From: Sphingopyxis sp. TUF1
GTDB lineage: Bacteria; Pseudomonadota; Alphaproteobacteria; Sphingomonadales; Sphingomonadaceae
Direction of reading: 5' to 3'
Length of the DNA: 64,000 nt
Assembly: GCF_036687315.1 (NCBI RefSeq)
Contig: NZ_CP144683.1
Coordinates: 3,046,001-3,110,000 of the forward strand
Below, in pieces: positions 14,753-56,827 of the stretch. A model generated the notes under the pieces. The model did not search any database. It was not told the DNA's origin and saw only the letters and a list, made by a program, of their open reading frames with translations. Positions within the stretch are counted from its first letter, which is position 1, and each line of letters begins with the position of its first letter. The translations under genes were made by a program, and so were the position numbers.

Positions 14753-16141
14753 ATGTTCCGATTATTCAAACATTATGTTCCGCATGCGGTCGTCTGGCTC
14801 GCGCTCATCGAATTCGGCGCGCTGCTGGGCGCGGCCGAGGGGGCGTGGCATATTTACGCCTGGCAGGCAGGGTTCGACGCGGGGCCGCTGGGCGAGCGCC
14901 TGCTGCCACTCCTGACCTTTGCCGCGGCCAATTCGCTCGCGATGATGGCGACGGGGATGTACGGAAGCGAAGGGCTGCGCTCGATGCGCTTTGCGACCGC
15001 GCGCCTGCTCGCCGCGGTCTCGCTCGGCGTGATTTTTCTCTCGGTGCTGCGGTTCCTGCTGCCCACCGCGACGCTGTGGCGCGCGAACAGCGTCTATGCG
15101 ATGGGAATCGCGATCGCTGCGCTGTTCCTGATCCGGCTCGCGCTTACCCAGTCGGCGGGGGCCGACGCCTTTCGCCGCCGTATCCTGGTGCTCGGCGCGG
15201 GTCCGCGCGCGGCGCGGCTTGCGGCGCTGGCCGACGCGCCAGGAAGCGGGCTCGACATCGTGGGCTTCGTCGCGATGAGCGGGGCCGAGACGACGGTGCC
15301 GCACGCGGTGCCGCGGCAGGAGATTGCGAATCTGTCCGAGCATGTCGTCGCGCTCAGCGCGGGCGAGGTGGTGCTGGCGCTCGAGGAGCGGCGCAAGGCG
15401 CTGCCGCTCGCCGACCTGCTGCGCGTCAAGACGACGGGGGTGCATGTCAACGACATTGCGAGCTTTATCGAGCGCGAGACGGGGCGCGTCGACCTGGCGA
15501 CGACCAATCCAAGCGGGCTCATTTTTTCCGACGGTTTTTCGGCGGGGCAGCGGATTTCGAAGGTTGGCAAGCGGTTGTTCGACATTGCCGCGAGCTTGAT
15601 CGTGCTCGTCATCGGCCTGCCGCTGATGATCGTCGCGGGCATCGCGGTGAAGCTCGACAGCCGCGGACCGGTTTTTTACCGCCAGCCGCGTGTCGGGCTG
15701 TTCGGCCAGCCCTATGACATGTTCAAGATCCGGTCGATGCGCACCGACGCCGAAGCAGAGGGCAAGGCGGTCTGGGCGAGCGAGAACGACCCGAGGATCA
15801 CGCGCGTCGGGCGAATCATCCGCACGCTGCGCATCGACGAGCTGCCGCAGCTGTGGTGCGTGCTCAAGGGCGACATGAGCTTTGTCGGGCCGCGCCCCGA
15901 GCGGCCGAGCTTTGTCGCCGAGCTCGAAAAGGCGCTGCCCTATTATGCCGAGCGGCACATGGTGAAGCCGGGGCTGACCGGCTGGGCGCAGATCAACTAT
16001 CCCTATGGCGCGTCGGTCGAGGATGCGCGCGTGAAGCTGGAATATGACCTCTATTATGCCAAAAATTATTCGCCCTTCCTCGACCTGCTGATCCTTCTCC
16101 AGACGGTGCGCGTGGTGCTGTGGCCGGAGGGGGCGCGGTAG
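14753..16141 (+). CDS. XrtA/PEP-CTERM-associated sugar transferase (TIGR03013 type)
   Basis: A 462-residue polyprenyl-phosphate sugar phosphotransferase that starts assembly of an exopolysaccharide repeat unit on undecaprenyl phosphate at the inner membrane. There are about four N-terminal membrane segments (LFKHYVPHAVVWLALIEFGA onward), a Rossmann-like middle domain (ILVLGAGPRAARLAAL), a further membrane helix near 280, and a C-terminal bacterial sugar transferase domain with SRGPVFYRQPRVG and RIDELPQLW. The family is defined by co-occurrence with exosortase XrtA. PrsK starts two bases after its stop, so the four genes to 21.6 kb form one functional cluster. Confidence 0.9.
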   Translation: MFRLFKHYVPHAVVWLALIEFGALLGAAEGAWHIYAWQAGFDAGPLGERLLPLLTFAAANSLAMMATGMYGSEGLRSMRFATARLLAAVSLGVIFLSVLRFLLPTATLWRANSVYAMGIAIAALFLIRLALTQSAGADAFRRRILVLGAGPRAARLAALADAPGSGLDIVGFVAMSGAETTVPHAVPRQEIANLSEHVVALSAGEVVLALEERRKALPLADLLRVKTTGVHVNDIASFIERETGRVDLATTNPSGLIFSDGFSAGQRISKVGKRLFDIAASLIVLVIGLPLMIVAGIAVKLDSRGPVFYRQPRVGLFGQPYDMFKIRSMRTDAEAEGKAVWASENDPRITRVGRIIRTLRIDELPQLWCVLKGDMSFVGPRPERPSFVAELEKALPYYAERHMVKPGLTGWAQINYPYGASVEDARVKLEYDLYYAKNYSPFLDLLILLQTVRVVLWPEGAR

Positions 16142-16143
16142 CC

Positions 16144-18267
16144 GTGTCGGGGCTGGACAGCCTTTCGCAGATTCTGTCGGCCATGGCGCTCGCGGGATTT
16201 GCCGGCGCGGCGCTGTGGCTGCTGGTGCGGCCGCGTCAGCGCATGGCGGCGCTGATGCCCGCGCCGCGCCTGCTTGCGCTCGCGGCCGCGACGAGTGCGC
16301 TGTGGGCGGGGGCGATGATGGCGTTTACGCCGGGTGCGCCGCAGGTGATCGTCGCGCAGATGCTGCGCGACCTGGCGATGCTGATGTGGCTCGGCGCGAC
16401 CTTCTGGTCGCCGCGCGCGCCGATGTCGCGGCCGCTGCGGCTGATCGCGCGGATGCTCGCGACGATCTGTTTGCTGACGCTGTTGTTTGGCGGAGCGGCC
16501 TTTTTGTTCGGCGGGGCGGCGGCCGACCCGTGGATGGGACGGACACTGGTCATTGTCGCGATGGTCGTGGCGGTGGGCGGGCTCATCGTCCTCGACGCGG
16601 GCGTGCGCCACGGCGGCGCGGGCCTGAGGATGCCGGTGATGGCGGTCGCGGGCGGCTTTGCGATGCTCTGGGCCTATCAGCTCAACGTCGAACTGATCGG
16701 CGCGCTGACGGGTATGCGCGCGTCGGCGCTGATCGCGCTGCTCCCCGCGGTCGCGCTGCTGACGCTGCCGACCTATGTCGTCGCCGCGATGGATGTCGGG
16801 CGCGAGCGGATGCGGCTGTCGCGTACGGCCGCCACGCGCACGCTGATCCTGCTCGGCGCCGCGAGCTACCTGATCCTCATCGCGTTTACCGTCGCGGTCG
16901 CGCGCGCCGCGGGGGGCGATTATGCGACGCTGGCGCAGGCGATTTCGCTGGTCGCGCTGCTCGGCGCGGCGGCGCTGATGCTCGCTTCGGCCCGGTCGCG
17001 GGCGTGGCTGTCGGTGATGATCTCGAAGCATTTTTTCGAGCATCGCTATGATTATCGCGCCGAATGGATGCGCTTTACCGCGACGCTGGGGCAGGGTGAC
17101 GACGAGCAGGACCGCAATCTGTATCGCCGCGTCGCCAAGGCACTGGCCGAGCTGACGGGCAGTCCCGGCGCGTTGCTGATGACGCCGGCTGCGGCGGGAG
17201 GCTTTCGGATCGCCGAACAATGGCGCTGGCCCGGCGGAATTGCCGAAGATGCGACGCTGTCGCTGCGATCGGCGTTCATGCTTCAGGAAACGCAGCATAT
17301 CGTCGAGCTGGATGCCGAGCGGCGCGGGACGGGCGGGGACAATGTGGGGGGACGGGATCTGGCGATCCCCGACTGGCTGATCGTCGACACGCGCGCTTGG
17401 GTGATCGTGCCGGTGCTGCATTTTCAGCGGATGATCGCGATCGCGGTGCTGCATCGTCCGGCGGTGTCGCGCGCGCTCGACTGGGAAGACCTCGACGTGC
17501 TGCGCATCGCGGGGCAGCAGGCGGCGAGCTATATCGCCGAATCGCAGAGCCAGCAGGCCTTGTCCGAAGCGCGGCGCTTCGACGAGTTCAACCGCCGCTT
17601 TGCCTTCATCATGCACGACATCAAGAATCTGGCGAGCCAGCTGGGCCTGCTCGCGCGCAACGCCGAGCGCCACGCCGACAACCCCGATTTCCGCGCCGAC
17701 ATGACGCAGACGCTTAAAATTTCGGCGGGGCGGCTGTCCGACCTGCTCGTCCGACTGTCGCCGCGCGAACGCGGGCGCGCTGCCGAGCCGGGGCGGGTAC
17801 TGATCGAACCGGTGCTGAACGACATCGCCGCCGAAGTACGGCCGCGCCGCGAACTGTTCGTCGGCTGTAAGGCAGGGCTCGCGGCGTGGGCCGACGCGGG
17901 ATCAATCCGGCAGATCGTCGCCCATCTCGTCGCCAATGCGATCGACGCCTCGGCCGCCGAAACGCCCGTTCAGGTCGTCGCCGTGGCCGAACAGCGGCGG
18001 GTGCGGATCGATGTGATCGACCAGGGGTGCGGGATGACGCGCGAGTTTGTTCGCGACGAGCTGTTCAAACCCTTCGTTTCGACGAAAGACAGCGGGTTCG
18101 GCCTCGGCGCGTTCGAAGCATTGCAGATCGCGGAGGCGATGGGGGGGGCGATCGAAGTGGCAAGCGAACCCGGCAGGGGCAGCAATTTCACGCTGTGGCT
18201 GCCGCTGGCCGACGCGGAGGGCGGCGCGGCAATCGGTGCGCAGATGATGAAAGCGGGACGGACATGA
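16144..18267 (+). CDS. prsK: XrtA/PEP-CTERM system histidine kinase PrsK
   Basis: A 707-residue membrane sensor kinase. The first half has about eight membrane segments, followed by a GAF-like region (about 300-460), a phosphoacceptor box with H491 in IMHDIKNLASQ, and a HATPase domain with N598 and the G boxes DQGCGMT and GFGLGAFEALQ. This is the architecture of PrsK, partner of PrsR in regulating PEP-CTERM/exopolysaccharide genes. A GGAGGG site lies about 12 bases before the GTG at 16144; a GTG at 16120 is possible. Its stop overlaps the prsR start (ATGA). The signal sensed is unknown. Confidence 0.9.
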   Translation: MSGLDSLSQILSAMALAGFAGAALWLLVRPRQRMAALMPAPRLLALAAATSALWAGAMMAFTPGAPQVIVAQMLRDLAMLMWLGATFWSPRAPMSRPLRLIARMLATICLLTLLFGGAAFLFGGAAADPWMGRTLVIVAMVVAVGGLIVLDAGVRHGGAGLRMPVMAVAGGFAMLWAYQLNVELIGALTGMRASALIALLPAVALLTLPTYVVAAMDVGRERMRLSRTAATRTLILLGAASYLILIAFTVAVARAAGGDYATLAQAISLVALLGAAALMLASARSRAWLSVMISKHFFEHRYDYRAEWMRFTATLGQGDDEQDRNLYRRVAKALAELTGSPGALLMTPAAAGGFRIAEQWRWPGGIAEDATLSLRSAFMLQETQHIVELDAERRGTGGDNVGGRDLAIPDWLIVDTRAWVIVPVLHFQRMIAIAVLHRPAVSRALDWEDLDVLRIAGQQAASYIAESQSQQALSEARRFDEFNRRFAFIMHDIKNLASQLGLLARNAERHADNPDFRADMTQTLKISAGRLSDLLVRLSPRERGRAAEPGRVLIEPVLNDIAAEVRPRRELFVGCKAGLAAWADAGSIRQIVAHLVANAIDASAAETPVQVVAVAEQRRVRIDVIDQGCGMTREFVRDELFKPFVSTKDSGFGLGAFEALQIAEAMGGAIEVASEPGRGSNFTLWLPLADAEGGAAIGAQMMKAGRT

Positions 18268-19652
18268 GCGAGGCGATGGCGGACAAGCGCAAGCTGCTGG
18301 TGGTCGAGGACGACCCGGGCCTGCAGACGCAGCTCAAATGGGCGTATGAAGATTATCGGGTGCTGGTCGCGGGCGATCATGACGCGGCGATCGAAATGCT
18401 GCGCGCCGAGGAGCCCGACGTCGTGACGCTCGACCTGGGATTGCCGCCCGACCCCGATGGCACGCGCGAGGGATTCCGGACGCTGAAAGCGATCATCGAG
18501 GCCAAGCCCGATACCAAGGTGATCGTCGTGTCGGGGCATGGCGAGCGCGCGAGCGCCTTGAACGCCATCGCAAGCGGGGCGTGGGATTTTTACCAGAAGC
18601 CGATCGACATCGATGCGCTGGGCCTGATCGTTGCGCGCGCATTTCACGTCCGCGAGCTGGAGGTGGAGAATGCGCGGTTGACGAGCGAGGGGGCGAGCGA
18701 CAACCGGGTGCTCGGCGGCATGATCACCGGCGCGCCCGAAATGCTGAAGGTGGCGCGCATAATCGAGCGCGTCGCGAGCCTCGATGTATCGGTGATGCTG
18801 CTGGGCGCGAGCGGGACCGGCAAGGAATTGTTGGCGCGCGGGCTGCACGAGGCGAGCGGTCGGCGCGACGGCGCGTTCGTCGCGATCAACTGCGCGGCGA
18901 TCCCCGAAAATCTGCTCGAAAGCGAATTGTTCGGGCACGAAAAAGGCGCTTTCACCGGCGCGGTCAAGACGACCGAGGGCAAGATCGAGCTGGCGCATGG
19001 CGGCACGCTGTTCCTTGACGAGGTCGGCGACATCCCGTTGCCGTTGCAGGTCAAACTGCTGCGATTTTTGCAGGAGCGGACGATCGAGCGGATCGGCGGA
19101 CGCAAGGCGATCGCGGTCGATACGCGGATCGTTTGCGCGACGCACCGCGACCTCGATGCGATGATCGCCGAACAGCGATTTCGCGACGATCTCTATTACC
19201 GGCTCGCCGAGATGGTGGTGAAAATCCCTTCGCTCGCCGAACGGCCGGGCGACGCGGTTCTGCTCGCGCGCCATTTCCTTCATCAATATGCGCCCGAGAT
19301 GAACCCCGGCGTACGCGGCTTTGCGCCCGACGCGCTGCAGGCGATCGACGAAGGCCGATGGCCGGGAAATGTGCGCGAACTGGAAAACCGGATCAAGCGC
19401 GCGGTCATCATGGCCGACGGCAAGCTGCTGACGCGCGACGACCTCGACATCGCCGGTGTGGCGAGTGATGGCGGGGAAGGGGGCGAGGCGGCGTGGCTGA
19501 ACCTGCGCAGCGCGCGCGAGGCCGCCGACCGCGTCGCGATCCGCCGCGCGATGACGCAAAGCGAAGGCAATATCTCGCACGCAGCGAAACTTCTGGGGAT
19601 CAGCCGTCCGACGCTTTACGATTTGCTGAAGCAATATCGGATGCAGGGCTGA
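18264..19652 (+). CDS. prsR: PEP-CTERM-box response regulator PrsR (sigma-54 activator)
   Basis: A 462-residue NtrC-type regulator with all parts intact: receiver domain with phosphoacceptor D57, AAA+ domain with Walker A GASGTGKE and the sigma-54 contact loop GAFTGA at 228-233, Walker B TLFLDEVGD, and a C-terminal Fis-type helix-turn-helix (SEGNISHAAKLLGISRPTLY). It is expected to be phosphorylated by PrsK and to open sigma-54 promoters carrying the PEP-CTERM box. The start overlaps prsK by four bases. It makes a useful contrast with the degenerate regulator at 37.7 kb. Confidence 0.93.
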   Translation: MSEAMADKRKLLVVEDDPGLQTQLKWAYEDYRVLVAGDHDAAIEMLRAEEPDVVTLDLGLPPDPDGTREGFRTLKAIIEAKPDTKVIVVSGHGERASALNAIASGAWDFYQKPIDIDALGLIVARAFHVRELEVENARLTSEGASDNRVLGGMITGAPEMLKVARIIERVASLDVSVMLLGASGTGKELLARGLHEASGRRDGAFVAINCAAIPENLLESELFGHEKGAFTGAVKTTEGKIELAHGGTLFLDEVGDIPLPLQVKLLRFLQERTIERIGGRKAIAVDTRIVCATHRDLDAMIAEQRFRDDLYYRLAEMVVKIPSLAERPGDAVLLARHFLHQYAPEMNPGVRGFAPDALQAIDEGRWPGNVRELENRIKRAVIMADGKLLTRDDLDIAGVASDGGEGGEAAWLNLRSAREAADRVAIRRAMTQSEGNISHAAKLLGISRPTLYDLLKQYRMQG

Positions 19653-19679
19653 ATGGGGCGACGAAACGCCTTATCCCTT

Positions 19680-19755
19680 CGTCATTGCGAGCGAAGCGAA
19701 GCAATCCAGTGTAGCGTAAACCGCTCTGGATTGCTTCGCTTCGCTCGCAATGACG
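19680..19755. repeat. Palindromic repeat, family B
   Basis: CGTCATTGCGAGCGAAGCGA on the left is mirrored by TCGCTTCGCTCGCAATGACG on the right, with a short middle. It fills most of the gap between prsR and prsT. Other copies are at 47514-47605 and 62067-62151. Confidence 0.85.
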
Positions 19756-19807
19756 AATTTGCGGATGACAAATGGATAAGCGCCAAACAAGTTCAGGATG
19801 ACGATGG

Positions 19808-21646
19808 ATGAGAGGATTCTCATTCACCGCATTGTTGCTCGCGGCGGCGGCGCTTTCGGCGTGCGGCGGCTCGGCCGAATCTCCGCGCGGCGGGCTGGAA
19901 GCGCGGCGTGCCGCGTTGAGCCAGGCGATCGCCGACGACCCCAGGGCGATCGCCGAGCGCGTCGCGCTCGCGCGCGTGGCGATTGCGCTCGGCGACGGGA
20001 TTGGCGCCGAAGCGGCGGTGAAGGGCGCGCTCGCGGCGGGGGCGAATGACGCAGCGCTGCGCCCGTTGCTCGCGCGTGCCTATGCATTGCAGGGGGACGG
20101 ACAGCGCGCGCTCGCGGCGCTCGACGCCGGGCCGATCATCCCCGAAATGCGGGGCGAAGCCGCGTGGGTCGCGGGCGACGTCCAGCTTGCGAACGGCAAT
20201 CTGGGGGCGGCGCGCGACGCCTATGACCGCGCGGTGCGCGCGTTGCCGCGCAATTCGGCGCTATGGGTCGATGTCGCGCGGTTTCGCGATGCCAGCGCCG
20301 ATATGCGCGGCGCGCGCGACGCGGTCGATTATGCGATCGAACTCGACGCGGCGAACAGCGGGGCGCTGGCGTATAAGGCCAATCTGGTGCGGAGGGCCGA
20401 AGGATTGACCGCATCGCTGGCGTGGTACGACCAGGCGCTTGCCGCCGATCCGGGCAATGCCGCAGCGCTGATCGACCAAGCGGCGACGCTCGGCGACCTT
20501 GGCCGCTATCGCGACATGCTGTCGGCGCTGCGCCGCGCGGCGGCGCTCGTCCCAAGCGATCCCCGGATATATTATCTGCAGGCGGTGCTCGCCGCGCGCG
20601 CCGGAAATTACCCGCTCGCGCGCAGCCTGCTGCAACGCACACGCGGCGAGATGGATAGCGAACCGGGGTTCATGCTGCTGAGCGCGGTGGTCGAGCTCGA
20701 ACTGGGCGGCGAGGCGGTCGCGGCGAACTGGGCCGAACGACTGTTGGCCGAACAGCCGCATAATTTCACCGCGCGGCGCATGTTGGCGGCGGCCGAATGG
20801 ACAGGCGGCGATGCCGAGGCGGCGCTGGCCGCACTGCGCCCGCTCGTCGTGCGGCCCGACGGCGACAGCTGGTCGCTGCTGCTCGCAGCGCGCGCGGCGG
20901 CCGAGCTGGGGCGCGACATCGAGTCGGCCGATTATCAGGCGCGCGCCGCGACGCTGACGCGCGGCGAGGCGGTGCCCTTTGCGGTCGACGAGGATTATGG
21001 CCTGCTGACGATGGCGGCCGATGCCGCGCCGCTCGATCCCGCCACGGCGATCCCCGCGATTTCGGCCGATCTGGCGCGCGGCAATGCGGAACGGGCGATC
21101 GCGCGGGCGGCGCGGCTGCGCGATGCCAATCCGGGGGTCGCCGATGCGCACATGCTGCTTGGCGATGCGGCGATGGCGGGCGGGCGTTATGCGCTGGCGG
21201 TAGAGGCGTATCGTGCGGCGCGCGATCTTGATGGGGGAGAGCGCACGACGTTGCGGCTGGCGAACGCGCTTTATCGCGCGGGCGATGCGGCGGGGTCGGG
21301 CGCGGCGATCATGGCGCTGCGCGAGCGCCAGCCGTCGAGCATCGCCGCCGACCGGATCGCGGGCAATCTGGCGATGGAGCGCGAACAGTGGGACGCGGCG
21401 ATCGCGCATTTCGACCGCGTGCGGCGCCGGATCGGCGACCGCGATGCGGTGGTGCTGCGCGAACTCGCGCGTGCCTGGGCGGCAAAGGGCGACGATGCCC
21501 GCGCGCTGGTGCTGATCGACCGCGCCTATCGGTTGCAGCCGCTGAACGCGGGGATCATGGAATTTTACGCGGCGCTGCTGGAGCGGCGGGGAAAAAGGCA
21601 GGCGGCGGCGGATTTGCGCGAGAAGGCGGCGCAGATCGGGCGGTAG
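19808..21646 (+). CDS. prsT: XrtA/PEP-CTERM system TPR-repeat lipoprotein PrsT
   Basis: A 612-residue lipoprotein made almost wholly of tetratricopeptide-like helical pairs. The signal peptide ends in a lipobox (LAAAALSAC, lipid on Cys19). TPR units are seen throughout, for example around residues 55-110, 180-260 and 430-600. Together with PrsK, PrsR and the sugar transferase it marks an XrtA/PEP-CTERM locus, where PrsT is thought to act as a periplasmic scaffold; its mechanism is unknown. It is separated from prsR by 155 bp that hold a family B repeat, so it may have its own promoter. Confidence 0.85.
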   Translation: MRGFSFTALLLAAAALSACGGSAESPRGGLEARRAALSQAIADDPRAIAERVALARVAIALGDGIGAEAAVKGALAAGANDAALRPLLARAYALQGDGQRALAALDAGPIIPEMRGEAAWVAGDVQLANGNLGAARDAYDRAVRALPRNSALWVDVARFRDASADMRGARDAVDYAIELDAANSGALAYKANLVRRAEGLTASLAWYDQALAADPGNAAALIDQAATLGDLGRYRDMLSALRRAAALVPSDPRIYYLQAVLAARAGNYPLARSLLQRTRGEMDSEPGFMLLSAVVELELGGEAVAANWAERLLAEQPHNFTARRMLAAAEWTGGDAEAALAALRPLVVRPDGDSWSLLLAARAAAELGRDIESADYQARAATLTRGEAVPFAVDEDYGLLTMAADAAPLDPATAIPAISADLARGNAERAIARAARLRDANPGVADAHMLLGDAAMAGGRYALAVEAYRAARDLDGGERTTLRLANALYRAGDAAGSGAAIMALRERQPSSIAADRIAGNLAMEREQWDAAIAHFDRVRRRIGDRDAVVLRELARAWAAKGDDARALVLIDRAYRLQPLNAGIMEFYAALLERRGKRQAAADLREKAAQIGR

Positions 21647-46474: not shown

Positions 46475-47502
46475 AGCGCGTCGTTGCCGCGATCGCCGCG
46501 GCGTTGCTGAGCAGTAGCGGCGGCACGGCGCTTACCCCGCCGACCGTCGACGAGGCGCTGGTCGAAAGCGACGCGATGCCCGCGAAGCTCTCCGCCTTCG
46601 GCCTGTTTCGCGGCAATGATCCGCTCCGTCCGGTGGCGGGCATCGCCTATACGCTGCGCACGCCCTTGTTCAGCGATTATGCCGACAAGCATCGGTTCAT
46701 GCTGATCCCGGATGGAAAAAAGGCTGCGGTGGGGGCCGATGGCGCCATCGACTTTCCGGTCGGCACGGTGCTGGTCAAGAGCTTCGGCTGGAGCGACGTT
46801 AACGCCGGGCGCCCGGTCGAAACGCGGCTGCTGATCCGCCGCGCCTCGGGCTGGGCGGCGCTGCCCTATATCTGGGATGCCGATGGCAAGGATGCGACGC
46901 TGGCGCTGGGCGGGCGGCGCGTGCCGGTGAGCTTTGCCACCGCCGCGGGCGAGCGGCATTCGATCCGCTATGCCGTGCCGAACAAGAATCAGTGCAAGGA
47001 ATGCCACAGCCTGAACGGCGAAATCGTGCCGATCGGGCCCAAGGCGCGCAATCTCGTGCTCGACCCCGCCGCACCGGCGGCGCTGCGCGCGCGCTATTTC
47101 GCGCAGCCCGCTGCGCTGGAGCCAGCGATGCCCGTGTGGGACGATGCGACCAGCGGCAGCGTTGCGGAGCGCGCTCGCGCCTATCTCGACGTCAATTGCG
47201 CGCATTGCCACAATCCGGCGGGCAGCGCGTCGAACAGCGGGCTGTTCCTGCGCTGGACCGACGATGCCGCAGGCGTGAACTATGGCATCGGCAAGCGCCC
47301 GACCGCGGCGGGGCGCGGCAGCGGGGGCATGGATTTCGCGATTGCGCCGGGAGCGCCGGATCATAGCTTCATGATCTATCGCCTCCAAAGCACCGATCCC
47401 GGCATTGCGATGCCCGAGGTCGGGCGGTCGACGGTGCATAAGGAGGGTGCGGCGCTGCTGCGGCAATGGATTGCGGAAATGCCGGAGGGTGGTTCGCGCT
47501 GA
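46471..47502 (+). CDS. SO2930-family diheme c-type cytochrome
   Basis: A 343-residue exported cytochrome with two CxxCH haem sites, CKECH (near residue 175) and CAHCH (near 249). The N-terminus VKRVVAAIAAALLSSSGGTA is a signal peptide. The region DYADKHRFMLIPDGKKA and the spacing of the two haems match the SO2930 family, which is encoded next to beta-helix proteins. The GTG start overlaps the beta-helix stop. It is probably a periplasmic electron carrier or an oxidoreductase acting on the neighbour's ligand; not known. Confidence 0.87.
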   Translation: MKRVVAAIAAALLSSSGGTALTPPTVDEALVESDAMPAKLSAFGLFRGNDPLRPVAGIAYTLRTPLFSDYADKHRFMLIPDGKKAAVGADGAIDFPVGTVLVKSFGWSDVNAGRPVETRLLIRRASGWAALPYIWDADGKDATLALGGRRVPVSFATAAGERHSIRYAVPNKNQCKECHSLNGEIVPIGPKARNLVLDPAAPAALRARYFAQPAALEPAMPVWDDATSGSVAERARAYLDVNCAHCHNPAGSASNSGLFLRWTDDAAGVNYGIGKRPTAAGRGSGGMDFAIAPGAPDHSFMIYRLQSTDPGIAMPEVGRSTVHKEGAALLRQWIAEMPEGGSR

Positions 47503-47513
47503 CCCGCCTAAAT

Positions 47514-47605
47514 GTCATTGCGAGCGCAGCGAAGCAATCTCCAGCTTCCGGAGCACTTGGACGATAGCTGGAGATTGCTTCGTCGCTCCGCTCCTCGCAA
47601 TAACG
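47514..47605. repeat. Palindromic repeat, family B
   Basis: GTCATTGCGAGCGCAGCGAA pairs with the right arm ending CTCGCAATAACG; the inner part AATCTCCAGC...GCTGGAGATT also pairs. It lies between the cytochrome gene and maiA. Confidence 0.8.
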
Positions 47606-47660
47606 ATGCTGTGATGTTCGGGCGCTTGCTAAACCGCATTGGTTTATCTTAGGTCCGCGC

Positions 47661-48293
47661 ATGACCAACCTCGTCCTCCACGATTATTTCCGCTCCTCGG
47701 CCAGTTTTCGCGTCCGCATTGCGCTCAATCTCAAAGGCCTCAATTATGAGCGCGTCGAGGTCAGCCTGATCGCGGGCGAGCAGCGCAGCGACGCGTTCCT
47801 CGAACAAAATGCGCAGGGGTTCGTGCCGATGCTCGTCGTCGATGGCGAGCCGATCATTCAGAGCATGGCGATCATCGACTGGCTCGACCGCACCTTTCCG
47901 CAGCCGCGGCTGATCCCCGAGGAAGCGATGCCGCGCGCGGTCGCGCTGGCGCAGGCGCAGGTGATTGCGAGCGACATTCACCCGCTCAACAACCTGCGCG
48001 TGCTCAAATATCTGACACGCGACCTGGGGTTGAACGAGCAGACCAAGGACCGCTGGTATCGCCATTGGATCGTGCAAGGCTTCGACGCGCTCGAAGCGAT
48101 GGCGGGCGACGGCAGGTTCCTTGGCGGCGACACGCCCGGGATCGCCGACTGCTGCCTCGTGCCGCAATTGTACAATGCGCGGCGGTTCGACGTGCCACTC
48201 GACGATTATCCGCGGCTGGTGGCGATCGAGGCGGCGTGCATGGAACTGGAGGCATTCCAGAAGGCGCATCCCGATGCGGTGAAGCCCGCGTGA
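47661..48293 (+). CDS. maiA: Maleylacetoacetate isomerase / zeta-class glutathione transferase
   Basis: A 210-residue zeta-type GST expected to turn maleylacetoacetate into fumarylacetoacetate in tyrosine breakdown, or a similar isomerisation. The N-terminus YFRSSASFRVRIALNLKGL matches the family's SSCSxRVRIAL motif, with alanine in place of the cysteine. IDWLDRTFPQPRLIP and the all-helical C-terminal domain are typical. No other tyrosine-pathway genes are near. Oddly, its stop overlaps the start of a TonB receptor gene. Confidence 0.88.
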   Translation: MTNLVLHDYFRSSASFRVRIALNLKGLNYERVEVSLIAGEQRSDAFLEQNAQGFVPMLVVDGEPIIQSMAIIDWLDRTFPQPRLIPEEAMPRAVALAQAQVIASDIHPLNNLRVLKYLTRDLGLNEQTKDRWYRHWIVQGFDALEAMAGDGRFLGGDTPGIADCCLVPQLYNARRFDVPLDDYPRLVAIEAACMELEAFQKAHPDAVKPA

Positions 48294-50356: not shown

Positions 50357-50370
50357 ACCGAAAACTACTG

Positions 50371-50458
50371 TCGCCCCCGCGAAGGCGGGGGCCGCTGTCG
50401 GTTTACGCAGCGACGGAGGAAAAGGCCGATTGCGGCCCCCGCCTTCGCGGGGGCGACG
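50371..50458. repeat. Palindromic repeat, family A (90-bp form)
   Basis: TCGCCCCCGCGAAGGCGGGG with the inverted arm CCCCGCCTTCGCGGGGGCGA, 14 bp after the receptor stop; same middle as 41771-41860. Confidence 0.9.
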
Positions 50459-50574
50459 GATGCGGCTGCCTCGATCTTGCAATCATCCTTTCATCCCGCG
50501 CTCACCGGGATTGCGCACCGATAACAGGCCGTTTAGGCTTCGTAGGCCGGGGTTGGTGAGGGAAACAGGACAGC

Positions 50575-51021
50575 ATGGCCGCGAAGAAGCTCAATCTCGA
50601 CAATTTCCTGCCTTATCGCCTGTCGATCGCTTCCAACGCGCTGTCGAGCCGGATTGCCGCCGAATATGAAGACCGCTTCGGTCTCAAGATCCCCGAATGG
50701 CGACTGATGGCGATCCTGGGTGAAGGAACGCCCAAGACGCAGCGCGAGCTTGTCCAGGCGACACGCATGGACAAGGTGACGGTGAACCGCGCCGCGAAGG
50801 GGCTGGCCGACCGCCAGCTGATCGCGCGTCAGGCGCACGAGGCCGACGGGCGCTCGCATCATCTGGCGCTCACCGACACGGGGCGTTCGCTGTATGACGC
50901 GATCGTCCCCGCGGCGCTCGCGAGCGAGGCGCAGCTGGAGGCCAACCTGAGCGCCGACGAACGCGCGACGCTGATGGCCTTGCTCGCCAAGCTGGTCGCC
51001 GCCGCCGAAACCTATGACTGA
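50575..51021 (+). CDS. MarR-family regulator heading the HPr-rel-A operon
   Basis: A 148-residue winged-helix regulator: YRLSIASNALSSRIAAEYED helix, FGLKIPEWRLMAILGEG, then the recognition part TQRELVQATRMDKVTVNRAA and the wing RQAHEADGRSHHLALTDTGR. It overlaps the PqqD-like gene by eight bases, so it is translated with the operon and probably represses it. The effector is unknown. Confidence 0.9.
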   Translation: MAAKKLNLDNFLPYRLSIASNALSSRIAAEYEDRFGLKIPEWRLMAILGEGTPKTQRELVQATRMDKVTVNRAAKGLADRQLIARQAHEADGRSHHLALTDTGRSLYDAIVPAALASEAQLEANLSADERATLMALLAKLVAAAETYD

Positions 51022-51295
51022 CCCCGCCTATCGCGCCGCGCCGGCGGACGCGCTGCGCATCGAGCCGCTGGGCGAGCTCACCGCGATTTTCGACCGGCGG
51101 TCGATGCAGACGCACCTCGTCGTCGCGCCGCTTCCCGAAATGCTGGCGTTGATGGGCGAGGGACCGTGCGACGCCGCGCTGCTCGTCAAGCGGCTCGAAA
51201 CCGCCTTCGACCTGAGCAATGCGGGCGACGTGCGCGCGCGCGTCGCCGAACGGCTCGCCGAGCTTGCGGACATGGGGCTGGTGGCGAAGGCGTGA
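51014..51295 (+). CDS. PqqD-family peptide chaperone of the HPr-rel-A system
   Basis: A 93-residue PqqD-like protein: LGELTAIFDRRSMQTHLVV is the beta-hairpin region and DAALLVKRLETAFDLSN the helical part. PqqD-fold proteins hold precursor peptides for modifying enzymes, usually radical SAM proteins in RiPP systems. Here the partner is an HprK-related kinase, which is what defines the HPr-rel-A set. It overlaps MarR at its start and the kinase at its end. No precursor peptide gene is present in the operon. Confidence 0.82.
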   Translation: MTDPAYRAAPADALRIEPLGELTAIFDRRSMQTHLVVAPLPEMLALMGEGPCDAALLVKRLETAFDLSNAGDVRARVAERLAELADMGLVAKA

Positions 51296-52158
51296 GATAT
51301 GTGAGCCGCATTGCCGTCGGACCGGTGCAATTCCGCATCGGCAGCGACTGGCGCGAACCCGTCGCGGCGCTCGACCGGCTCTACGCCGCCTATCCGCGCG
51401 ACGACACCCGGCCTGCCGATGCAACGGTGCGGTTGTTTGCGGCGCGGCCGTGGCGGCGCTGGCTGCGCCCGTCGGTGCATATCGGCGGCGATTTCGTCGT
51501 TCCCGACGCGCTGCCGCTGCCGCTGTCGATGGGGCTGCTCGCCGCCGAGATGGCGATGAATTTGCAGGTGGCATTGGGCTGGCGGCGCCACCTGCTGCTC
51601 CATGCGAGCGCGGTCGCGAAGGACGGGCGCGCGCTCATCATGTCGGGCGAATCGGGGTCGGGGAAATCGACGCTCGCGGCGCTGCTCGGCGAAGGCACCT
51701 GGCGGTTGATGGGCGACGAGTTCACGCTGATCGATCCTGCGGGCGGCGAGGCGCTCGCCTTTCCGCGGGCAGTGAGCCTGAAGAATGAAGCGATCGCCGA
51801 GGTCGCTGCGCGCGTCGATGCGACGCGGCTGGGGCCGCTGCTCACGGGCACGCCCAAGGGCGACATCCGCCATCTGATGCCGCGCGCCGACGCCATCGCG
51901 GCGATGCACGAACCCGTGCGCCCGGCGCTCCTCCTGTTCCCGCGCTTCGGCGGCGCGGCGGCGATCGAAGCGATGGGCGAGGGCGAGGCGTTCGTGCGGC
52001 TGACCGAAGCATCGACCAACTATGTCGCGCTGGGCGAGGCGGGCTTTGCCGCGCTGACGCGGCTGGTGCGCGAAACGCCCGCGTTCGGCATATCCTATCC
52101 CGACAGCGCCACCGGCATCGCATTGGTCGAGCAACTATGGGCGGAAGCGATCGCATGA
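51292..52158 (+). CDS. HprK-related kinase A
   Basis: A 288-residue P-loop kinase related to the C-terminal half of HPr kinase. HLLLHASAVAKDGRALIMSG leads into Walker A GESGSGKS (119-126); MGDEF (D142, E143) follows, the place of the HprK catalytic acid. True HprK acts on HPr of the PTS; no ptsH is nearby and the N-terminal HprK domain is replaced by another region. Related P-loop kinases accompany PqqD-like proteins and a nucleotidyltransferase. The GTG at 51292 overlaps the preceding stop; a second GTG at 51301 is possible. Substrate unknown. Confidence 0.84.
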   Translation: MRYVSRIAVGPVQFRIGSDWREPVAALDRLYAAYPRDDTRPADATVRLFAARPWRRWLRPSVHIGGDFVVPDALPLPLSMGLLAAEMAMNLQVALGWRRHLLLHASAVAKDGRALIMSGESGSGKSTLAALLGEGTWRLMGDEFTLIDPAGGEALAFPRAVSLKNEAIAEVAARVDATRLGPLLTGTPKGDIRHLMPRADAIAAMHEPVRPALLLFPRFGGAAAIEAMGEGEAFVRLTEASTNYVALGEAGFAALTRLVRETPAFGISYPDSATGIALVEQLWAEAIA

Positions 52159-53171
52159 GCGCGGTGCGGACCTTCGTCGACCTGCTCGCCGGGCGGCGCG
52201 AGGCGGCGACGCTGACGCCGCGCGATTGGGACGGGGTGATCGGCGTCGCGCGCGCCGAGGCGATGCTGGCGACGCTTGCGCATCGGCTGGAGGATGCGGC
52301 GCTGCCGCCGTCGGTCGCCGCGCTCTTCGCCGACCAGCGCGCCGCGGCACAGGTCGCGACCGCACAGGCTTTGTGGGAAGCCGAAATGGCGCGCCGGGCA
52401 CTTGCTCCCGAAGGGATCGAGTTCGTGCTGCTCAAGGGTGCCGCCTATGCTGCCGCGGGAATGTCGTGCAGCGTCGGGCGCCAGATCGGCGACCTCGATA
52501 TATTGGTGCTCGCCCCCGACATCCGCCGCGCCGAAAATGCGCTGCTCAATGCGGGGTGGGAGTGGGTGAAGTCCGACCCCTATGACGATTTCTATTACCG
52601 CGCGCATATGCACGAGCTGCCGCCGATGATCCACAAGGCGCGCGACCGGATGATCGACGTGCACCACACGATCCTGCCGCGCACGCACCGGATCACGCCC
52701 GATGCGCTCGCGCTCGTCAGCGATGCGGTGGTCATCGCGGGCGGCCATGCGGTTCTCTGCCCCGCCGATATGGCGGTGCATTGCGCGGCGCATATGCTCG
52801 TCGATGGCGACTTGCAGGGCGGACTGCGGAACCTGTGGGATTTTCACTGCCTGACGCGCGATTTTGTCGCTGCTGATGCGGGGTTTTGGGCCAAGCTCGA
52901 CGCGCGGGCGGACCTGCATGGGCTGCGCGCCGCGGTGCGCCGGGCGGCGCGGCTGGCGCGCGATCTTTATGGGAGCGCGCTGCCTTCGGGCTTGGACGGA
53001 CAGGATGCCAGCGATAGCTGGTATCGCCGTCGCCTGCTCGCGCGCGACGATTGGGGGCGGGTGACGCATCCGCTGCTCGAACAGGCCTTCTACATCCGCT
53101 CGCACTGGCTGCGGATGCCGCCGCTGATGCTTGCGAAGCATCTGTGGACGAAGTGGCGGAAGCGCTCATAG
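52155..53171 (+). CDS. Nucleotidyltransferase family protein of the HPr-rel-A system
   Basis: A 338-residue protein of the NTP_transf_5 (PF14907) type. EFVLLKGAAYAAAG, GRQIGDLDILVLAPDIRR and DVHHTILPRTHR carry the KG, G..DxDxLV and H motifs of this minimal nucleotidyltransferase fold. The rest is helical. It overlaps the kinase gene (ATGA); an ATG at 52137 would add six residues. Such proteins sit beside PqqD-like and P-loop kinase genes in peptide-modification loci, but the reaction is not known. Confidence 0.83.
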   Translation: MSAVRTFVDLLAGRREAATLTPRDWDGVIGVARAEAMLATLAHRLEDAALPPSVAALFADQRAAAQVATAQALWEAEMARRALAPEGIEFVLLKGAAYAAAGMSCSVGRQIGDLDILVLAPDIRRAENALLNAGWEWVKSDPYDDFYYRAHMHELPPMIHKARDRMIDVHHTILPRTHRITPDALALVSDAVVIAGGHAVLCPADMAVHCAAHMLVDGDLQGGLRNLWDFHCLTRDFVAADAGFWAKLDARADLHGLRAAVRRAARLARDLYGSALPSGLDGQDASDSWYRRRLLARDDWGRVTHPLLEQAFYIRSHWLRMPPLMLAKHLWTKWRKRS

Positions 53172-56075: not shown

Positions 56076-56450
56076 ATGACCCGCATTCTCGCCGATCTTC
56101 CCGATGAAGAGATCAAGCGTCTCGACCGTATTGCCTATGAACAGGGCAAAAGCCGGGCGGCTGTGCTGCGCGATGCCGTCGCGGCCTATCAGGCTCGGCC
56201 GGCGTCGGATGATGGCGATTGGATCGATCGCGGCTTCGGGCTCTGGTCCCGAAACGGCATTTCTGTTGATCCCTATGATTATGACCGGAAGCGCCGGGCC
56301 GAATGGACGCGGCCCTGGGATGATGATTATGAGGAAGTGCGCGCAGAATCGCCGGACATGTTCGACGCCGAGGATGACCGCCAGCGGCAAATCTATCTCG
56401 ATATGATTGCCGGGAAATATCCCGAGCCGAAGAGCCCGCACCCCAAGTGA
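56076..56450 (+). CDS. Ribbon-helix-helix antitoxin with acidic C-terminal extension
   Basis: A 124-residue protein. Residues 1-42 are a ribbon-helix-helix DNA-binding domain (MTRILADLPDEEIKRLDRIA, then SRAAVLRDAVAAYQ). Residues 43-124 are acidic and tryptophan-rich (DDGDWIDRGFGLW, RRAEWTRPWDDDYEEV), suited to bind and mask a toxin. It overlaps the PIN-domain gene (GTGA). It should bind the ATGATATCAT operator upstream of its start. RHH antitoxins are commonly 70-90 residues, so this one is long. Confidence 0.85.
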   Translation: MTRILADLPDEEIKRLDRIAYEQGKSRAAVLRDAVAAYQARPASDDGDWIDRGFGLWSRNGISVDPYDYDRKRRAEWTRPWDDDYEEVRAESPDMFDAEDDRQRQIYLDMIAGKYPEPKSPHPK

Positions 56451-56827
56451 GCGGTTATACGTTCGATGCAAATATCGTCATCGACGCGCTTGCCGGTTAT
56501 CCGCCGGCGCGGGTCGAAATCCAGCGCGCCGCGCGCAATGGCGCCCGCCCGTGGATCAGCCGGATGGCGTGGATCGAAGTGATGTCCAAGGGCGACGAAA
56601 GCGTTGTCAAGGAAGCCATGGCGTTTCTGGCGCATTTCGGTCTCGATGAAATCGACGACGAAATCTCTGCGAGGGCAGCGGCGCTGCGCCGCGACCGGCC
56701 GCGGCTGAAGTCGCCCGACGCCATGATCCTTGCCACCGCCCAAACGCGCGGTCGCGTACTCATTACCCGAAACATCAAGGATTTCCCGGCCAACATGCCG
56801 GGCATCCGTGTCCCCTATACGCTCTAG
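56447..56827 (+). CDS. PIN-domain ribonuclease toxin (VapC type)
   Basis: A 126-residue PIN-domain nuclease. The acidic site is D7 (TFDANIVIDAL), E44 (AWIEVM), D91 (KSPDAMILATA) and D112 (TRNIKDF), the classical VapC quartet. VapC toxins cleave tRNA or rRNA and stop translation. Start GTG 56447 overlaps the antitoxin stop. The toxin gene ends 17 bp before glmS, so the TA pair sits between two essential cell-wall genes. Confidence 0.9.
   Translation: MSGYTFDANIVIDALAGYPPARVEIQRAARNGARPWISRMAWIEVMSKGDESVVKEAMAFLAHFGLDEIDDEISARAAALRRDRPRLKSPDAMILATAQTRGRVLITRNIKDFPANMPGIRVPYTL

Follow-up and report, generated by a model that had tools for sequence, protein, structure and literature searches.

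Which molecule do the enzymes of an HPr-rel-A operon act on when none of the operon's genes encodes a substrate? This question is raised by four genes of Sphingopyxis sp. TUF1, found at positions 50575 to 53171 of the 64,000-nucleotide stretch of DNA analysed here (the window), which covers bases 3046001-3110000 of a genome assembled as a single contig of 3,470,982 bases, cited below as G000:C1. By analogy with the enzyme sets that modify certain peptides, we think that the operon is probably a protein-modification module, and that its target is a small exported protein of the twin-arginine translocation (Tat) type, encoded 53.6 kb downstream. The evidence computed here consists of the enzymes with their kept catalytic residues, the small protein itself, the adjacency of its gene to the enzyme genes in relatives, and the co-inheritance of both halves though they are unlinked. 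The four genes are the following:

50575..51021, + strand: MarR-family regulator (MarR_2, 48.4 bits; cut-off 27)
51014..51295, + strand: PqqD-like protein of the RiPP recognition element (RRE) type, HPr-rel-A system (TIGR04353 PqqD_rel_X, 48.2 bits; cut-off 35)
51292..52158, + strand: HprK-related kinase A, GTG start (TIGR04352 HprK_rel_A, 224.8 bits; cut-off 200)
52155..53171, + strand: nucleotidyltransferase, ATG start (PF14907, 175 bits; cut-off 31.2)

Successive genes overlap by 8 bases (MarR/pqqD), 4 (pqqD/kinase) and 4 (kinase/nucleotidyltransferase); the coordinates and overlaps given in an earlier, sequence-only reading of this DNA are exact, and the LHAS and GESGSGKS motifs that it ascribed to the kinase are both present. 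Its assignment to the HPr-rel-A system also holds, as TIGR04352 and the adjoining TIGR04353 both match above their cut-offs. The gene set is not a random one: among 53 kinase loci compared, a member of the pqqD cluster was called in 39 and a member of the nucleotidyltransferase cluster in 48.

A candidate substrate gene outside the operon

The sequence-only reading stated that there is no peptide gene, that the substrate must therefore be encoded elsewhere or be a general protein, and that short conserved proteins co-occurring with this set should be searched for. The first statement is true of the operon, whereas the system as such has a candidate, whose gene lies directly upstream of pqqD in relatives. 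The search led to a Tat-type protein co-inherited with the kinase, and the substrate indeed appears to be encoded elsewhere in the same genome. A profile of five proteins from the same family (A1) gave one strong match in the own genome (G000:C1:3152762-3153136, E value 2.2e-57); the full reading frame, G000:C1:3152729-3153139 (L132:9729-10139), encodes 136 residues and lies about 43 kb past the right end of the window. The protein has the predicted hallmarks of a Tat substrate, a twin-arginine leader with a hydrophobic stretch, and the genome has TatC at G000:C1:3171897. The target gene is followed by a hydrolase gene, which we take to be fumarylacetoacetase-like, and on its other side it has kept a divergent phoR-like neighbour (TIGR02966, 301.6 bits, below the cut-off of 334.2).

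The kinase was searched for in 398 genomes of the phylum and exceeded its cut-off in 61. The 53 loci compared comprise 40 chosen from those 61 (each with flanks of up to about 8 kb), 12 from relatives, and the window. In seven loci of the same family, the gene directly upstream of pqqD encodes about 130 residues, including a twin-arginine leader; in eleven loci outside the class, the protein encoded there is a different one, about 165 residues long and with a leader of the same type. Taken together, a small Tat-type gene stands just upstream of pqqD or of the kinase in 49 of the 53 loci; in L143 it sits between the two. This tally combines 40 of the 49 called upstream genes that were recognised by script, five settled by eye (L045, L048, L054, L055 and L064), and L040, L047, L056 and L142, where the target had been missed or cut by the gene caller; these four, like several mis-started ones, were settled from lists of open reading frames (ORFs) or from profile matches. 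The script was loose, passing 76 of 811 other genes as well, and an earlier, stricter version passed 20 of the 49 upstream genes. An adjoining target is absent from four loci: the window and L033, whose targets are elsewhere in the genome, L043 (G268), and L066. No family name could be given to these proteins, as seven targets tested against NCBIfam had no match, and ten tested against Pfam had none above cut-off and a single one far below it (PF03157, 16.3 bits; cut-off 50).

Co-inheritance and the separation of the two halves

Sixty relatives were searched, 36 of them from the same genus (the own genome included), with gene places compared by eye. The target was found in all 36 genomes of the genus (E value 7e-55 or better), and so was a kinase match, which exceeds the cut-off in 35 and is shortened by a contig end in G415. 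Kinase and target are adjacent in only two of these genomes (G412 and G414). Linked genes would travel together anyway, so the evidence from the genus, where the two halves are unlinked, is the stronger. When 149 genomes of the family were searched with both queries, the kinase exceeded its cut-off in 45 and the target matched (at 1e-3) in 46: both were found in 44 genomes, the kinase only in 1, the target only in 2, and neither in 102. Thus, the target occurs in 44 of the 45 kinase genomes versus 2 of the 104 others, and these two are weak cases (G553, E value 8.7e-4; G573, 1.5e-4 and two internal stop codons). In 40 of the 44 double-positive genomes the genes lie side by side, the exceptions being G000, G214, G399 and G268. 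Some of the 44 rest on weak target matches, such as those of G456 (1.3e-4) and G528 (3.4e-5) beside the kinase and that of G268 away from it. Fisher's test gave p 3e-34 when counted by genome and 4e-23 when counted by genus (31, 0, 2, 63), both values being uncorrected for relatedness. The sequence-only reading had named a lack of co-inheritance in other genomes as a result that would speak against it, and the opposite is found in genus and family.

Co-inheritance could also arise if enzymes and target were not enzyme and substrate at all and both contributed to a common exported structure or stress response, e.g. one controlled by PhoR. In favour of this possibility, many loci in the family and order have the target and phoR-like genes divergently oriented; we nevertheless consider it improbable: a strict pattern for tandem Pho-box-like repeats matched none of 72 phoR-target intergenic regions, and in the loci L045-L072 the upstream gene is mostly still of the Tat type, without a gene of the phoR cluster alongside.

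The usual gene order in the same family and order starts with pst-like and phoR-like genes, from which target, pqqD, kinase and nucleotidyltransferase genes diverge; a phosphatase gene follows on the opposite strand, and then come glmU-like and glmS-like genes. The names glmU, glmS, pst, HprK and RapZ that we use for neighbouring genes are what we presume these genes to be. In the own genome, pqqD, kinase, nucleotidyltransferase, phosphatase and glmU-like genes remain together in the window. As the target still lies by the phoR-like gene and the block from pqqD to the glmU-like gene is intact, the break is located between target and pqqD; judging from gene order, these two genes became separated in Sphingopyxis, where the gene ahead of the enzyme genes is now that of a MarR regulator. 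Scanning the genome contigs with an alignment of 12 target proteins gave 420 encoding stretches, the best 80 of which are the named loci. Among these 80, 49 show the order phoR-target-hydrolase and have kinase-free flanks, in 28 the target adjoins pqqD and/or the kinase (21 of them also with the phoR-like gene), and 3 have other, kinase-free patterns, so that 52 have no kinase in their flanks. Among the best 80, the kinase-free pattern is that of Sphingopyxis records and a few others, some of them metagenome-assembled genomes (MAGs) under other names, and the closest named relatives with the target are mostly Sphingopyxis. L208, a Sphingopyxis MAG, is of the linked type, and G412 and G414 have kept the linked order within the genus.

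The earlier reading spoke of the operon's own MarR regulator. This gene is present and overlaps pqqD, but it does not seem to be a core part of the system, as it is found where target and enzyme genes are separated: of the genus genomes examined, all 17 unlinked ones (the window and 16 of the other 33) have MarR ahead of pqqD, and the two linked ones do not. The place that it occupies, both in the window and in L033 (G214), is that of the candidate substrate gene in most relatives. The suggested search for a MarR operator upstream of 50575 was carried out by eye on the DNA preceding 18 MarR sequences (one genome being represented twice); no conserved palindrome was seen there, and we claim no operator. 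An inverted repeat upstream of 50575, ATCCCG-N7-CGGGAT, was discarded as a candidate because it is not conserved in relatives. Many of the 18 sequences are preceded by a promoter-like CTTCACAG...CGATA element, and no motif common to the MarR and target promoters was seen.

A separate observation concerns the region upstream of the target, where a GTCCC-N4..6-GGGA repeat occurs in 38 of 51 unlinked loci (L152-L202) versus 0 of 21 linked ones among the named relatives; the copy of the own target, GTGCCAAAGCGGGA, is one base off. The repeat is possibly a regulator site that accompanies the split. Between the TonB receptor and MarR genes, the window also has a long inverted repeat at 50370-50460 (cccccgcgaaggcggggg ... 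cccccgccttcgcggggg), which resembles a palindromic repeat element.

Target tail, enzymes and the proposed modification

In an alignment of 18 targets (A5; 14 from outside the class and 4 from the same order), mean column identity is 29%. Invariant are R, R, K, P, T and L of the leader, and also a Cys and a Ser spaced three residues apart near the C-terminus. These two, Cys157 and Ser160, are the sole invariant residues outside the leader. A motif of the form [ST]Cxx[ST]-hydrophobic is found within the last 45 residues of 35 of the 49 upstream genes (35 of the 45 that are Tat-type) and in none of 811 other genes, or of 710 when the kinase and pqqD genes of the same loci are left out of the control. 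All 80 named loci have it as FTC[FY]AS (79 by script; L203 was read as FTCFAS from its row), and 79 of the 80 have RR within the first 40 matched residues and, likewise in 79 of 80, R or K before the cleavage region. The two groups, the 18 aligned targets and those of the named loci, are connected by hhalign through the leader and the first Cys with a probability of 92.6%, and the A5 profile, run over the whole own genome, returned only the 136-residue gene, with a weak E value of 0.08.

The enzymes keep their catalytic residues. In the kinase (numbered as a 285-residue protein from 51301), H101, K122, D139 and E140 are identical in 52 of 52 homologues, and its structure model has a predicted local distance difference test (pLDDT) score of 93.4. 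A Foldseek search with this model ranked phosphoenolpyruvate (PEP) carboxykinases first (E value about 1e-7) and HprK next (1.7e-4), two enzymes that belong to one superfamily; a profile search of Protein Data Bank sequences placed UvrA (2e-4) ahead of HprK (1.2e-3). The nucleotidyltransferase residues K94, G95, R109, D113, D115 and D168 are kept in 48 of 48 homologues, as would be expected of an active enzyme. At L061:7968-10088, an HprK-related kinase (residues about 1-317) and a nucleotidyltransferase belonging to the same cluster (about 333-684) form one natural fusion protein of 706 residues, and the two functions are therefore tied.

The kinship with HprK raises the question whether the kinase simply acts on HPr of the phosphotransferase system, an outcome that the sequence-only reading had itself named as speaking against it. 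Its His, Walker-A Lys and first Asp do align with those of an HprK-like ORF of the own genome, profile and fold matches to HprK exist, if weak ones, and the genome has an HPr. This HPr, however, lies at about G000:C1:1240300-1240740 within 2 kb of that separate HprK-like ORF. The ORF has the residue set H-K-D-D, whereas the second acidic residue is Glu in all 52 kinase A homologues (H-K-D-E), and HprK_rel_A is a separate equivalog family. We thus consider an action on HPr scarcely credible.

The enzymatic steps of the modification that we propose are inferred by analogy with the modules of lasso peptides and of linear polyphosphorylated peptides (LPPs), the latter being a group described from Bacillota (PMC9266682, PMC8498205, PMC13381572 and PMC10368454). 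The likely chemistry, in agreement with the phosphorylation or nucleotidylation suggested by the sequence-only reading, is a phosphorylation together with a nucleotidyltransferase step. First, the PqqD-like protein would bind the target near its N-terminus, in the region of the twin-arginine leader, as RREs do. The HprK-related kinase would then phosphorylate the Ser of the C-terminal Cys-x-x-Ser, i.e. Ser131 in the own protein, in the manner of the lasso kinases. The PF14907 nucleotidyltransferase would add a group to the phosphate, most likely a sugar, as PsmN does in pseudomycoidin formation. Finally, the protein would be exported by Tat and its leader cleaved; once outside, its two conserved cysteines, Cys51 and Cys128, may form a pair. 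The third step is the least certain, because deletion of the transferase gene of an LPP cluster reportedly changed nothing in the test host (PMC13381572).

Besides this deletion, several observations weigh against the proposed modification of a Tat-type target. G540 has a kinase and no detected target; in G268 (L043), the target match is weak (E value 1.2e-8 to 2.0e-7) and on another contig, and no target was seen nearby in the ORF list of L066. Ten of the 45 called Tat-type targets are without the Cys-x-x-Ser motif, and these ten together with L047 and L056 (L045 and L047-L057) follow a looser sPGxW ... aYlNa consensus, so that one site cannot explain all targets; the sPGxW ... aYlNa proteins may represent a second type of target, modified at a different site. 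No lasso-type YxxPx motif was seen by eye in the target leaders. The structure model of the target is poor (mean pLDDT 59.3), with low confidence at the C-terminal end, which may be compatible with a flexible tail and is no proof of one, and a fold search with this model gave no significant match. The fold matches of the kinase are significant yet loose (TM 0.26-0.54 to the query, root-mean-square deviation 7-14), and all 52 kinases have D-E as against the D-D reported for lasso kinases (PMC9266682).

The conserved leader also permits a different division of labour. The small protein would still be the true partner, but the PqqD-like protein would serve chiefly as a chaperone for Tat proofreading, and the kinase and nucleotidyltransferase would modify another molecule, such as a glycan or lipid carrier, with the small protein as acceptor or helper. 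We regard this as unlikely, while giving it some weight: no part of the targets is better conserved than the twin-arginine leader, and 23 of the 28 loci L045-L072 carry, within 8 genes, members of ten clusters associated with XrtA/PEP-CTERM exopolysaccharide genes (nine of the ten have a member typed as an XrtA/PEP-CTERM gene, cluster 38 being untyped). This suggests a surface-glycan link in these distant loci, and Bacillota LPP clusters are likewise reported from capsule loci (PMC13381572). On the other hand, where their substrates are known, such kinases phosphorylate peptides (PMC9266682, PMC8498205), XrtA/PEP-CTERM neighbours occur in only 2 of the other 25 loci, and PrsR, the XrtA/PEP-CTERM regulator, exceeds its cut-off in 126 of the 149 family genomes, most of which are kinase-free. 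A link between PrsR and the kinase within the family was considered and set aside as uninformative, given this wide distribution; in G479 and G552, the kinase occurs without a PrsR above cut-off.

Related systems and neighbouring sequence

The sequence-only reading called the operon a candidate for an undescribed biochemical system. The enzyme set is in fact known from phosphorylated lasso peptides and LPPs (PMC8498205, PMC13381572), and what appears to be new is the Tat-exported protein substrate. LPP clusters resemble the present one in having a discrete RRE, an HprK-like kinase and an uncharacterised nucleoside triphosphate (NTP) transferase without a lasso cyclase. Further resemblances lie in the precursors, which are 35-200 residues long and combine a conserved N-terminal part with a variable C-terminal one, and in the occurrence of the clusters in polysaccharide loci. 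They differ in their archaeal-type signal peptidase, MsbA-like transporter, YxxPx leader and phosphates on Ser3 of the core (PMC13381572), whereas the target of the HPr-rel-A operon has a Tat-type leader and its candidate Ser near the C-terminus. Neither an LPP-type signal peptidase I nor an MsbA-like transporter was recognised beside the operon, where the maleylacetoacetate isomerase (maiA), TonB receptor and phosphatase genes were typed and the rest were judged by eye.

Phosphorylated lasso peptide systems of the paeninodin/pseudomycoidin type (PadeK, ThcoK, SyanK, PsmK/PsmN, BsfK) share the RRE, HprK-like kinase and nucleotidyltransferase (PMC9266682, PMC8498205). The C-terminal Ser is phosphorylated in the paeninodin type, and PsmN, the enzyme of pseudomycoidin, adds a hexose to the phosphate (reviewed in PMC9266682, PMC8498205); BsfK, co-expressed with the RRE BsfB1, phosphorylates Ser3 (PMC10368454). 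The resemblance to paeninodin-type tailoring genes, and the presence in Sphingomonadales of lasso precursors of the phosphorylated kind (PMC10368454), could mean that the true substrate is an overlooked lasso or other short peptide and the Tat-type protein a conserved neighbour. This we hold to be very improbable. The leader peptidase family PF13471 has no match in the one-contig own genome, and the genomes of the genus have retained both the Tat-type protein and the kinase even though their linkage was lost, for which mere neighbourhood would not account. Compared with the paeninodin/pseudomycoidin type, the own genome thus has no PF13471 B2 peptidase, the candidate target is a protein of 136 residues, and the kinase is H-K-D-E instead of H-K-D-D. 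A lasso cyclase was not recognised among the partly typed neighbours of the operon, no genome-wide cyclase search having been made. An asparagine-synthase-like neighbour in L046 was rejected as a lasso cyclase, since TIGR03108 scores 1018 bits and the lasso cyclase model 239.5 (cut-off 525). With PqqD, the chaperone of pyrroloquinoline quinone biosynthesis, the system has the PqqD-type family in common (TIGR04353), but here the partner is a kinase, and the operon has no radical S-adenosylmethionine gene.

Among open-licence PubMed Central papers to August 2026, a scope outside which most subscription papers and preprints lie, none names 'HPr-rel-A', 'HprK-related kinase' or 'PF14907', and none combines three of the terms Tat signal, kinase, PqqD and HprK. 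The main text of the RRE-Finder paper (PMC7470986) does not mention HPr, kinase or TIGR04353. The enzyme module is known, its substrate class is apparently undescribed, and one genus has the two halves separated. The HPr-rel-A set is now connected, in many genera, with an unnamed protein family that carries a conserved candidate Ser, and the function is therefore directly testable. If the Tat-type protein is indeed the substrate, RRE-guided kinase and nucleotidyltransferase chemistry would extend from short natural-product peptides to exported proteins, and a substrate gene can escape notice once a genus breaks its operon. A further-reaching version would have RRE, kinase and nucleotidyltransferase install a phospho-sugar (or nucleotide) link on the Cys-x-x-Ser tail of the Tat-exported protein, as a phosphoester anchor to a cell-surface glycan; the system would be widespread in Gram-negative bacteria, with folded proteins and not short peptides as substrates, and with the halves separated and re-regulated in Sphingopyxis. 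As a whole, this version is speculative and rather unlikely to hold.

The operon is preceded on the same strand by maiA and a gene for a TonB-dependent receptor, and followed on the opposite strand by a phosphatase gene of the haloacid dehalogenase (HAD) superfamily, phosphoglycolate type (175 bits, below the cut-off of 180), and then by the glmU-like gene. Elsewhere in the window, 14753-21646 codes for an XrtA/PEP-CTERM glycosyltransferase (TIGR03013), PrsK (TIGR02916) and PrsR (TIGR02915), all above cut-off, and for a PrsT-like tetratricopeptide repeat protein (TIGR02917, below cut-off); several of the distant loci have relatives of these genes close to their HPr-rel-A operons. At 56076-56827, two overlapping small genes resemble, on the impression of their sequence, a pair of antitoxin and PIN-type toxin; members of the clusters to which they belong, 29 and 31, occur in 6 and 5 of the compared loci, respectively. 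The reading frame at 47369-47668 contains a CEERSDEAI ... DCFAALAMT string, which we presume to be one that recurs in translated palindromic repeat elements of alphaproteobacteria.

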